Shown here: positions 14,130 to 61,510 of the stretch, piece after piece
Numbering within the stretch: the first letter of the stretch is position 1
Layout: each line of letters begins with the position of its first letter
Origin: Carnobacterium sp. CP1
GTDB lineage: Bacteria > Bacillota > Bacilli > Lactobacillales > Carnobacteriaceae
Assembly: GCF_001483965.1 (NCBI RefSeq)
Contig: NZ_CP010796.1
Location: forward strand, 1,837,001-1,901,000
Length of the DNA stretch: 64,000 nucleotides
Direction: 5' to 3'
Notes under the pieces: model-generated
What the model was told of the DNA's origin: nothing
The model's database searches: none
The model's input: the letters and a program-made list of their open reading frames with translations, nothing else
Made by a program: the position numbers and the translations under genes

Positions 14130-14996
14130 ATGGAAATAACAGAAGAGCATAAGTACGTAAAAACGAATGGAATTAAACTGCATGTTGTTCAACAAGGCCC
14201 TGAAGAAGGACAGTTGATTATTTTGCTGCATGGGTTTCCCGAATACTGGTATGGGTGGCGCGACCAGATTTCTAATTTAGCAAATAAAGGGTTCCGAGTA
14301 TGGGCACCTGACCAAAGAGGGTATAATCTCAGCGACAAACCTGAAAAAGTAAGCGACTACCGAATGGATCATCTAGTCGAGGATATTGCGGGCTTGATCA
14401 AAGCTTCTGGAAAAGAAAAAGTGTTTCTTGTGGGTCATGATTGGGGAGGAATCGTGGCGTGGAGAGTGGCGAGAGAGCATCCTGATTTACTCCACAAATT
14501 AGTCATCCTCAACGCCCCACACGGAGCAGCTATGAGCAGACAAATCTTACAACACCCAGTACAAATTCTGAGAAGTTCGTATATCCTTTTCTTTCAACTT
14601 AGAGGGATACCGGAGAGATTATTTGAACTGTCCGATTGGAAAGTTGCGGTAAAGGCATTGAGGAATAGCAGCAAGGAAGGCACATTCAGTGAGAATGATT
14701 TGCAAAAGTACCGTGCTGCCTGGTCTCGTCCGGGAGCCATGCGTTCGATGATCAATTGGTACCGCGCTAATGTGCGCAGCCTTTCCGGCCCAACTATTCC
14801 ATCTCGAGTCACGGTGCCCACCTTAGTGATATGGGGAGCCAAAGATCAATTTTTGGGGCATGAATTGGCCAGTAAAAGCCTTGAGTTTTGTGATGAAGGC
14901 CGGGGAGTATTGCTAGGGGAAGCTACTCACTGGGTGCATCACGAAGAACCAAAACATGTCAATAAGCTGATTGCTGATTTTATCAATGAAATGTAG
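14130..14996 (+). CDS. Alpha/beta hydrolase, epoxide hydrolase-like
   Basis: A 288-residue alpha/beta-hydrolase. The oxyanion motif HGFP is at 34-37, the nucleophile motif GHDWGG puts Asp104 in the elbow, and Asp239 (WGAKDQF) with His267 (ATHW) completes the triad. An Asp nucleophile and HGxP are features of soluble epoxide hydrolases and haloalkane dehalogenases; the cap domain here looks more like the former. ATG at 14130 follows GGAGGG. No signal peptide is seen. The natural substrate is unknown. A structured repeat containing a terminator hairpin follows directly. Confidence 0.8.
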   Translation: MEITEEHKYVKTNGIKLHVVQQGPEEGQLIILLHGFPEYWYGWRDQISNLANKGFRVWAPDQRGYNLSDKPEKVSDYRMDHLVEDIAGLIKASGKEKVFLVGHDWGGIVAWRVAREHPDLLHKLVILNAPHGAAMSRQILQHPVQILRSSYILFFQLRGIPERLFELSDWKVAVKALRNSSKEGTFSENDLQKYRAAWSRPGAMRSMINWYRANVRSLSGPTIPSRVTVPTLVIWGAKDQFLGHELASKSLEFCDEGRGVLLGEATHWVHHEEPKHVNKLIADFINEM

Positions 14997-15005
14997 CCCA
15001 AAAAA

Positions 15006-15179
15006 GGGAGTGAGACAAAAAGCGTTTAGACCCGAATCACTGGAACGAATAAGCGCAGTATGGTCACAGACCATCGAGCATTATTCGTGAAGTGGACGTC
15101 GGGTCTGCTTTTTGGAACACGTTCTAGAATAAATATTCGGATATGCAAAAGAGGTTGGGACTTTTGTCCCAACCTCTTT
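15006..15179. repeat. Structured interspersed repeat, copy 1
   Basis: Bases 15006-15149 match 61337-61480 with only two differences in 144. The core folds on itself: AAAAAGC/GCTTTTT, AGACCCGA/TCGGGTCT (15028-15035 with 15099-15106), ACGAATAA/TTATTCGT, and an ATGGT/ACCAT tip. A terminator-like hairpin (GAGGTTGGGAC/GTCCCAACCTC, 15151-15177) follows. It sits between the convergent epoxide-hydrolase-like and pspA genes and probably ends both transcripts. Confidence 0.8.
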
Positions 15180-15206
15180 GCTTATTTTAATAGAAAAAAG
15201 TCGTTA

Positions 15207-15884
15207 TTATAAGCCCATATCTGACTTCAGGCGGTTCAGCTCATCTTCAACAGCGGCTGAGCCTTCGCTGGAATATTTTTCTTCCAGTGATTTTGCTTCG
15301 TCAACCGGTTCTTGATTTAATTCTGACATGGCATTGGCTTCATCTAGCATGCGGTCAGCTTTGTCTTCCATACGCGAGAATGAACCCATTGCACCTTGTG
15401 TTTTGCCGATAGATTCGCTGACATTATTCAGCTTTTCTTGAGTTTTCGCTACAGACATCTTGCCTTTGATCATAGCACGGCGGCCTTTTAAAGTTTCGAT
15501 ATCAGAAGCTAGTTTATCATGCATTTGACGCATTTTTGCAGCATTTTCATGTGCAGCAGCGTAAGATTGCGCTAAGCCGGTTCCGACATCTTCCAGTTCT
15601 TGTTTTTTCTTCAGGAAAATACGTGCATCGTCTTCATTTCCGGCTGTTAAAGCTTTTTTGGCGTAGTCATTGTATTTCATAACTTCAGCTTCATTTTGAT
15701 CAACAGCGCGTTTCGTACGGGTTTCTTCAGCGATGACACCAGCTGTATTGCGTTTAACTTCTGCCAAGTCTTCTGTCATGTTGCGTAAGTATTGATCGAT
15801 CATTTTTTCAGGATCTTCCATTCGGTCAATGAGTGAATTGATGTTTGCACTGATGATGTCGGTAAAACGGTCTAAAATAGCCAT
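15207..15884 (-). CDS. pspA: PspA/IM30 family envelope-stress protein
   Basis: A 225-residue, almost entirely coiled-coil protein beginning MAILDRFTDIISANINSLID. The conserved EDPEKMIDQYLRNM segment is characteristic of PspA/IM30/Vipp1. These ESCRT-III-like proteins bind stressed membranes as oligomers. The last 30 residues are an acidic tail. ATG is preceded by AAGGAGGA. It lies 27 bases behind the TPM-domain gene and is clearly in one operon with it. That pairing is also seen in the Bacillus ydjF-ydjG-ydjH region, which supports a membrane-stress role. Confidence 0.9.
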   Translation of the reverse strand: MAILDRFTDIISANINSLIDRMEDPEKMIDQYLRNMTEDLAEVKRNTAGVIAEETRTKRAVDQNEAEVMKYNDYAKKALTAGNEDDARIFLKKKQELEDVGTGLAQSYAAAHENAAKMRQMHDKLASDIETLKGRRAMIKGKMSVAKTQEKLNNVSESIGKTQGAMGSFSRMEDKADRMLDEANAMSELNQEPVDEAKSLEEKYSSEGSAAVEDELNRLKSDMGL

Positions 15885-60615: not shown

Positions 60616-61028
60616 TTATGCTACTGGAGGTGTTCCTTCAGTATTTGACACAACTACATCAATTGCACCAAAGCATCCATAGGCAAAGCTGAATATGCAA
60701 CTGTTGTCCGTGCAGGAATACCGCTTGGGAAGAATGTCGCATAAACTTCGTCTACAGCATTACTATCTGCAATGTTTTTAAGGAAGATAGTTACTTTTAC
60801 TACATCGTCCATAACATGGTCGACACTTTCTACAATGGTTTTGATATTTTTTAAGCACTGTTCAGCTTGCTCTTTTACACCACCAGCTACCATTTTACCA
60901 GATGTTGAATCGATAGGTAATTGAGCTGAAAGATGATTGTAATGAGAAAAAGCTACCGTTTGTGTAGATAGAGAACTTTTTGGTGCATTTTCTGTATTTC
61001 TTGCTAGTACTGCGTTGTAGCCACTCAT
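60616..61028 (-). pseudogene. ridA: RidA family enamine/imine deaminase, 3' frameshift
   Basis: The first 118 residues follow the RidA/YjgF family: LSAQLPIDSTSGKMVAGGVK, VKVTIFLKNIADSNAVDEVY, PSGIPARTTVAYSALPMDAL. RidA hydrolyses reactive 2-aminoacrylate. After VQ the frame hits an early stop at 60654. Restoring one base near 60657-60661 gives VQIDVVVSNTEGTPPVA and a stop at 60616-60618, the normal family end. The lost tail includes active-site-region residues, so function is doubtful. The ATG has AAGGGG upstream. Confidence 0.75.
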
Positions 61029-61336: not shown

Positions 61337-61510
61337 GGGAGTGAGACAAAAAGCGTTTAGACCCGAATCACTGGAACGAATAAGCGCAGTATGGTCACAG
61401 ACCATCGAGCATTATTCGTGAAGTGGACGTCGGGTCTGCTTTTTGGAACACGTTCTAGAATAAACATTTGGATATGCAAATGAGGATGAGACTTTTGTTT
61501 CATCCTCTCT
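61337..61510. repeat. Structured interspersed repeat, copy 2
   Basis: 144 bases agree with 15006-15149 at all but two positions. The following hairpin (GAGGATGAGAC/GTTTCATCCTC, 61482-61507) is at the same place as in copy 1. It has a different sequence and keeps its base pairing. It lies 8 bases before the amidase stop and probably terminates that gene. Confidence 0.8.

Follow-up and report, generated by a model that had tools for sequence, protein, structure and literature searches.

What kind of sequence is the 174-bp structured repeat that stands at gene ends in Carnobacterium sp. CP1, and how did it reach its sites? Two copies lie in the window, the whole stretch of 64,000 nucleotides that was analysed. 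A sequence-only reading of the window had noted that 144 bases of the two copies match with two differences. This match was borne out between 15006-15149 and 61337-61480, with the differences at 15134 (T/C) and 15138 (C/T). The genome that bears both copies (G000) comprises 2.61 Mb in two contigs. Copy 1 (C1:1852006-1852179, site 1) was used as the reference copy, L001, and copy 2 (site 2) is referred to as L012. The features of both copies are given below in window coordinates.

15006..15179, + strand: copy 1, whole element (unit, tail and terminator hairpin), the reference copy L001
15011..15125, + strand: core hairpin unit of copy 1, from the alignment to model R2 (96.2 bits, E 2.7e-21; its family helped build R2)
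15017..15023, + strand: stem P1, 5' arm AAAAAGC, from unit alignments and pairing counts
15024..15027, + strand: conserved 4-nt bulge GTTT at the P1/P2 junction, from folds; 109 of the 127 distinct A3 units have GTTTAG or one of its variants
15028..15034, + strand: stem P2, 5' arm AGACCCG, from unit alignments and pairing counts
15039..15094, + strand: upper hairpin region; in other copies, module I1 lies directly after 15038, at the 5' edge, and module I2 takes the place of bases close to the 3' side
15100..15106, + strand: stem P2, 3' arm CGGGTCT, from pairing counts
15107..15113, + strand: stem P1, 3' arm GCTTTTT, from pairing counts
15118..15129, + strand: conserved 3' motif CACGTTCTAGAA (CACGTTTA in many relatives), the end of the unit
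15148..15179, + strand: terminator-like hairpin of copy 1 (14 pairs, loop of 4)
61337..61508, + strand: copy 2, whole element, apparently a mosaic of young core and older tail
61342..61456, + strand: core hairpin unit of copy 2 (model R2, 96.2 bits)
61482..61507, + strand: terminator-like hairpin of copy 2 (11 pairs, loop of 4)

When folding was compared with shuffles, z was -9.2 for copy 1 and -7.0 for copy 2. The fold of copy 1 consists of two adjacent stem-loops, the unit hairpin and the terminator hairpin. The end hairpins, GAGGTTGGGAC-TTTT-GTCCCAACCTC in copy 1 and GAGGATGAGAC-TTTT-GTTTCATCCTC in copy 2, are separated by two double compensatory changes and one change of G-C to G-T, with 11 of 11 pairs kept. 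The two hairpins thus differ in sequence and keep full pairing, as had been claimed earlier, but they are not a feature adjoining the repeat: other copies in the genome (e.g., L002 and L003) are 100% identical to copy 1 across the hairpin, which is therefore part of the repeat. The AATAAACATT tail of copy 2 recurs in L017 and in copies from G002, a related genome, and copy 2 looks like a mosaic in which a young core sits on an older tail. For this reason, covariation between the two copies alone carries little weight. Copy 1 has an alpha/beta-hydrolase gene on one side and a PspA/IM30 gene on the other, and the two genes meet end to end. An amidase gene has its 3' end beside copy 2, and an L-PSP-type gene starts on the other side. 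For the L-PSP-type gene (window 60654-61028), the genomes G003, G004 and G001 each contain three matches side by side (for example, G003:C1:1003143-1004486), a small tandem gene family.

A search of G000 itself returned 18 full copies, namely 12 plain ones, four with one extra module of ~53 bp and two in which a second module joins the ~53-bp one, as well as one further decayed copy. The picture of just two copies, explicable by recent duplication, was therefore not upheld. The 12 plain copies are 95-100% identical to the query, and one of the 18 full copies, L018, has a different terminator hairpin at its end. The plain element is 174 bp long, the added modules measure ~53 bp and ~70 bp, and the general plan is a unit of ~115 nt followed by a tail and a terminator hairpin. 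The order within the unit is GAGTG, P1 (7 bp), the 4-nt bulge GTTT on the 5' side, P2 (7 bp), the upper hairpin, the return arms of P2 and P1, and CACGTTYTA. Distances from the 5' to the 3' anchor were taken in 86 distinct copies extracted from several genomes, seven loci that match only the short terminator hairpin being left out. They fall into classes of 42-47, 80-87, 107, 127-135, 140-141 and 196-202 nt, and in the 42-47 nt class the upper hairpin is lost. An end hairpin of the same kind was found without the unit at C1:2342086 and C1:1157159. In other genomes, the unit is nested in another palindromic repeat (L074-L080) or forms tandem arrays with a period of 115-124 nt, in which neighbouring units may carry different stems that still pair.

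Tree-based covariation was not significant in 58 closer copies alone, so the two copies cited by the sequence-only reading could not show selection on structure. The set of units was widened after this null result, and the tests that follow are a second look at one question. A set of 89 units was anchored by sequence motifs only and compared with 10,000 shuffles. In P1, 200 of 217 positions pair over 31 distinct arm pairs (shuffled mean 159, maximum 176); in P2, 288 of 315 positions pair over 45 distinct arm pairs (shuffled mean 206, maximum 237). For alignment A1, three odd copies were left out at selection, and L089, one of the 40 chosen, was also left out. For alignment A2, 72 of the 89 units were kept by length (units with inserts were left out), and 40 remained after near-identical units had been removed. 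These 40 diverse units show changes on both sides in 24 of 28 pairs, and 88.8% of the cells are paired against 64.9% in shuffled alignments, the scored structure being partly derived from A2 itself. The ranking of all 6441 column pairs is independent of the structure. Tested against a home-made null in which the tree is preserved, the top 11 of them are all structure pairs; E<0.05 was reached by 3 structure pairs over all pairs and by 14 of 28 within the structure set.

Alignment A3 contains 139 units (127 distinct), aligned by the model and fitted to the structure. Changes on both sides were observed at 28 of 28 pairs, a value that 8 of 500 shuffles also reached; none reached the other four measures. 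In A3, 89.6% of the cells are paired against 57.6% after shuffling, and 1205 cells are changed on both sides against 390. Sliding one side by one base lowered the pairing to 43-45%. The 83 loci from the source search for A3 were intended to be independent of A2, but L234 and L103 of A2 turned out to be one unit, and a further five show 90-97% similarity. After removal of these six overlapping units, 122 distinct units remained, each at most 90% similar to any unit used in model building. They gave 89.8% paired cells against 57.2% in shuffles, both-side changes at 28 of 28 pairs, and 1166 both-side cells against 363. Selection on structure, one of the possibilities raised from the two copies, is thus supported by the changes on both sides at all 28 pairs and by the 11 top covarying column pairs, all of them structural. 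We conclude that the folded structure of the unit, as RNA or as single-stranded DNA, is under selection.

Model R1 matches 12 of the 18 genomes of the family, and the other six are without a match. Model R2 matches 123 of 395 sampled Lactobacillales genomes in 36 of 80 genera (families f1, f2, f4, f6, f8 and f9), with the E-values of such short-calibrated models being rough. In one genus (g22), all 22 genomes examined match. In a sample of the whole class, R2 matches only 14 of 398 genomes, ten of them outside Lactobacillales, so the model does not fire everywhere. Loci inspected by eye show the P1-GTTT-P2 framework. The 12 genomes scored in depth have 6 to 71 matches each, with both strands counted, so that one copy may count twice. 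Named carriers include Trichococcus palustris DSM 9172, Carnobacterium jeotgali, Jeotgalibaca caeni and Atopococcus tabaci.

The nearest named enterococcal unit is on plasmid 3 of Enterococcus faecium DO (NC_017963.1, L289), where two tandem units score 39.3 and 38.5 bits with R2; blast matches were found in 13 other E. faecium plasmid records. Among four blast queries of the enterococcal type, two name only Enterococcus faecium plasmids and two name nothing. One query of this type had no match among phages, and two blast queries from family f9 had no match. NC_017963.1 is the conjugative megaplasmid of this strain, and together with the matches in the other plasmid records it suggests a possible route of spread. 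A plasmid or phage origin of the form present in the window was dropped, as searches of 72,556 plasmid records and 50,697 phage records gave no match to 15006-15125, in a collection from which near records were possibly omitted. Rfam 15 gave no match in the window at the gathering threshold. Searches of 12 loci returned only a TPP riboswitch, and in 20 loci only T-box and PyrR were above gathering, in each case located elsewhere than the element. The detection of T-box, PyrR and TPP in these loci indicates that the search worked. Membership in a known Rfam family was dropped, since none was found at gathering, and the sub-gathering matches were taken as chance. A literature search among open-licence papers turned up neither the repeat nor a printed EFAR sequence.

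The gene neighbours were surveyed for 48 of the 86 copies, those with long enough flanks, and 45 of the 48 had two called neighbours, that is, mechanical open reading frames of at least 60 codons. These 45 copies lie between convergent genes in 22 cases, in the two codirectional settings in 10 and 11 cases, and between divergent genes in 2, all as raw counts. Where the upstream gene is on the + strand, no more than 45 nt separate its stop codon from the start of the element in 29 of 32 cases. The element adjoins gene 3' ends on either strand, and this lack of bias toward one gene orientation argues against a role confined to the 3' UTR.

Of the 18 sites in G000, six were compared with orthologous sites in G002, of which part was covered; another two loci had a match for just one of their flanks. 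In G002, the counterparts of L001, L012, L003, L014, L015 and L007 are plain terminators without the unit in all six cases. The counterpart of L014 (GGAGTTGGGG...CCTAACTCC) is somewhat like the end hairpin of the element, and the other five are unrelated to it. The L007 site in G002 has an extra gene in between, and site 2 has yet other terminators in G003 and G004. At L003, the sequence is AAAAAAAG[23 nt]CTTTTTT in G002 and AAAAAAAG[170 bp]TTTTT in G000, with few differences in the flanks, and the 23 nt are the top of the G002 terminator. The replacement at this one site occurred without target duplication. Because the copies in G000 are nearly identical, we infer that the change at L003 is a gain in G000 and not a loss in the relative. 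The suggestion of an element that inserts next to terminators is supported in its tie to terminator sites, as the plain terminators at the orthologous sites of the relative attest. The element appears to replace a terminator and not to insert beside it.

Perfect stems of at least 6 bp within ~90 bp outside the element revealed no further hairpin in 16 of the 18 copies in G000; the remaining two have one short palindrome each. Scored without gaps, the left and right flanks complement each other better than shuffled flanks do: their mean score was reached by 18 of 10,000 shuffles for all copies, by 39 when shuffling was within groups and by 29 for G000. With gaps, it is weaker, the corresponding numbers being 233, 710 and, for G000 alone, 3882 of 10,000. 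An ungapped score of at least 10, a cut-off set after seeing the data, was obtained for 8 of 44 copies against 2.5 expected. Judging from these flanks, it is likely, if unproven, that the base of the old terminator stem has been retained.

We think it fairly probable that the repeat belongs to the EFAR type of mobile elements, is non-autonomous and encodes no protein, and that it replaces terminators and supplies its own. Such an element would land in an intrinsic transcription terminator, within the hairpin, and take the place of the hairpin's upper part, leaving the surrounding A-tract and T-tract where they were. Its own hairpin is predicted to terminate transcription, so that the flanking genes would still be terminated and the event would be nearly neutral. 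The movement may proceed by copying into hairpins, perhaps through template switching or through a transposase recognising a folded single strand, and the conserved P1-GTTT-P2 fold would be what the mobilising machinery reads. That the element moves is suggested by its multiple copies and by orthologous sites of different species, not strains of one species. One point against a mobile element is that the conservation of the fold over Bacilli is deeper than a neutral parasite strictly needs. A search for a mobilising enzyme that covered the Y1 transposases (PF01797) found none in G000; they were absent from 16 of the 18 family genomes and present in G004 and G009, with the controls of this search giving matches in 5 of 14.

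The repeat could instead be a functional 3'-UTR RNA: a host protein or ribonuclease would bind the folded transcript and set the stability or the 3' end of the upstream mRNA, and the repeat would spread because it is useful. This is in line with the both-side changes that keep the fold at all 28 pairs and with the GTTT and CGTTTA motifs, which are conserved and unpaired in the model. Mismatches in A3 comprise 149 G-T against 60 A-C (17 against 0 in P1), an excess that favours a folded + strand RNA, although the model used to pick these units itself rates G-T higher. The corresponding counts in the anchor-based set are 5 against 8 in P1 and 17 against 10 in P2. In G012, 24 of 28 units fold better as the + strand, and the G-U pairs of this strand outnumber those of the other (63/23), as they do in G007 (26/13), in Trichococcus and others (22/15) and in G009 (16/12). 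However, it is the other strand that is richer in G-U pairs in G000 (35 against 25) and in the close relatives g1/g3 (96 against 68). The strand of the repeat also shows no preference relative to genes; with 10 and 11 copies in the two codirectional settings, roughly every second one of these would lie antisense. Moreover, no promoter-like site was found near copy 1 in 14900-15300, the one - strand promoter-like site in the vicinity of copy 2 is within chance, and the repeat has no match in six of the 18 family genomes. Hence, we regard a 3'-UTR RNA as unlikely.

We give even less credence to a DNA-architecture site comparable to BIME/REP, whose cruciforms between convergent genes would bind gyrase or nucleoid proteins. 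The 22 of 45 copies between convergent genes, the occurrence in either orientation at gene 3' ends and the low number of copies in divergent gaps (2 of 45) would suit such a site, but the asymmetric 4-nt bulge and the strand-specific framework are conserved, which a symmetric cruciform site does not need, and the Y1 transposase of REP systems is absent from G000. Ordinary terminators homogenised by gene conversion, with no mobile element involved, would account for the mosaic appearance of copy 2 and for the end hairpins that stand without the unit (C1:2342086 and C1:1157159). Against this, the ~115-nt unit occurs without this terminator, both nested (L074-L080) and in tandem arrays, and conversion needs a prior copy at the site, of which G002 has none at the six compared sites; this explanation seems to us very improbable.

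A broader proposal, which we put forward tentatively and consider possible, concerns the framework itself. P1 of 7 bp, GTTT, P2 of 6-8 bp, a long upper hairpin and a CGTTTA or CTAGAYA-like end may define a superfamily of terminator-invading elements across Bacilli, maintained by compensatory change amid sequence turnover. Its fold would be read by trans-acting machinery as RNA or single-stranded DNA, and the mobile element would be defined by shape and not by sequence. If our reading of the repeat is right, one family of structured repeats that Rfam does not match captures transcription units at their ends, and scattered reports such as that of EFAR would be linked. The fast turnover of terminators would be partly explained, and the conserved fold would make the search for the machinery testable.

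The nearest known kind appears to be EFAR of Enterococcus, the likeness being one of behaviour. The EFAR repeats of Enterococcus faecalis, reportedly described by Venditti et al. in 2007, are said to be ~170 bp long, modular and variable in length, with two stem-loops. Their empty sites are reportedly unrelated stem-loops of 24-37 bp, mostly deleted on integration, and the target stem is said to be partly retained at the ends of the element. The repeat described here is similarly modular, variable in length and close to 170 bp (174 bp when plain). Its empty sites are also comparable, being plain terminators at six of six compared G002 sites, five unrelated to the element and that of L014 somewhat similar. 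Retention of the target stem is seen here at L003, and for the flanks the within-group shuffles gave 39/10000 ungapped and 710/10000 gapped. We know of no EFAR work reporting the P1-GTTT-P2 framework, its covariation or a distribution that takes in Lactobacillales and further Bacilli. Possibly, the class-wide framework is the new part, the element itself being filed as a variant of the EFAR kind. EFAR elements in Enterococci are named among MITEs in a passage of one paper (PMC3733652), and another gives Efa-1 as a 163-bp intergenic repeat with 65 (18) members and a pair of adjacent stem-loops (PMC2267715). In our view, EFAR is probably the same as Efa-1. Both share with the fold of copy 1 the two adjacent stem-loops.

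REP elements are 20-40 bp long, bear a GTAG or CGTC tag and are associated with a Y1 transposase. REP/BIME with RAYT are described as hairpin repeats at gene 3' ends (PMC3733652), which resembles the present element, but the Y1 transposase is absent here. REP/RAYT was excluded for G000 because this enzyme is missing. BOX of Streptococcus pneumoniae and S. suis is presented as modular, intergenic, tightly folded, variable in length and held to be parasitic, with terminal inverted repeats and target duplications (PMC3049150). The first four of these properties are shared by the element, as is the reading as a parasite; unlike BOX, it shows no target duplication at L003, the one site concerned. 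Family f3, which we take to be Streptococcaceae, is not represented among the 123 matching genomes of the order, nor do any of the 13 f3 genomes listed in the class sample match.

SPRITE of S. pneumoniae is a terminator-like repeat enriched near gene 3' ends, with an 18-bp duplex and a U-rich tract (PMC3049150). It is similar to the element in being terminator-like and near gene 3' ends, and it differs in being a simple duplex with a U-rich tract and no long unit. STAR of Staphylococcus aureus is described as intergenic arrays opened by GTGGGACAGAAATGAT, with a 14-bp GC-rich motif and 40-44-bp spacers (PMC3532100). This opening is only partly similar to the left end of the element, GAGTGRGACAAAA. 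Both are modular and have units with locus-specific spacers; the motif and the spacer length of STAR may set the two apart, and no shared unit emerged here. A different intergenic repeat, opening with GAGAGTGGGACAGAAATCGG and close to the STAR start signature, was observed at L043, L057, L045 and L059 (G019 and G034 of f3, probably Streptococcus). It ends beside a GAGGCTRGGAC...GTCCYAGCCTC terminator, a kind common to the element.

Several further observations concern the anatomy of the copies. At L074-L080, L093 and L094, in some Carnobacterium-type genomes, the unit lies within a second long inverted repeat, TTTGCTTGTAGCCATG ... CATGGCTCTCCACAAGCAAA, which is probably an element of its own. 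The ~70-bp module I2 (L067, L068, L093-L098; L104) replaces differing stretches of the unit, mostly ends just before AAGTGG and recurs in the second Trichococcus unit; it may itself spread. In L071, L086 and L183, the upper hairpin is now a near-perfect palindrome, as hairpin-templated repair would give. In many copies, the left end, GTGGGACAAAA, complements TTTTGTCCCA, the 3' arm of the end hairpin (window 15006-15022 with 15162-15171), with one mismatch in copy 1 of the window. An alternative long-range closing stem is therefore possible.
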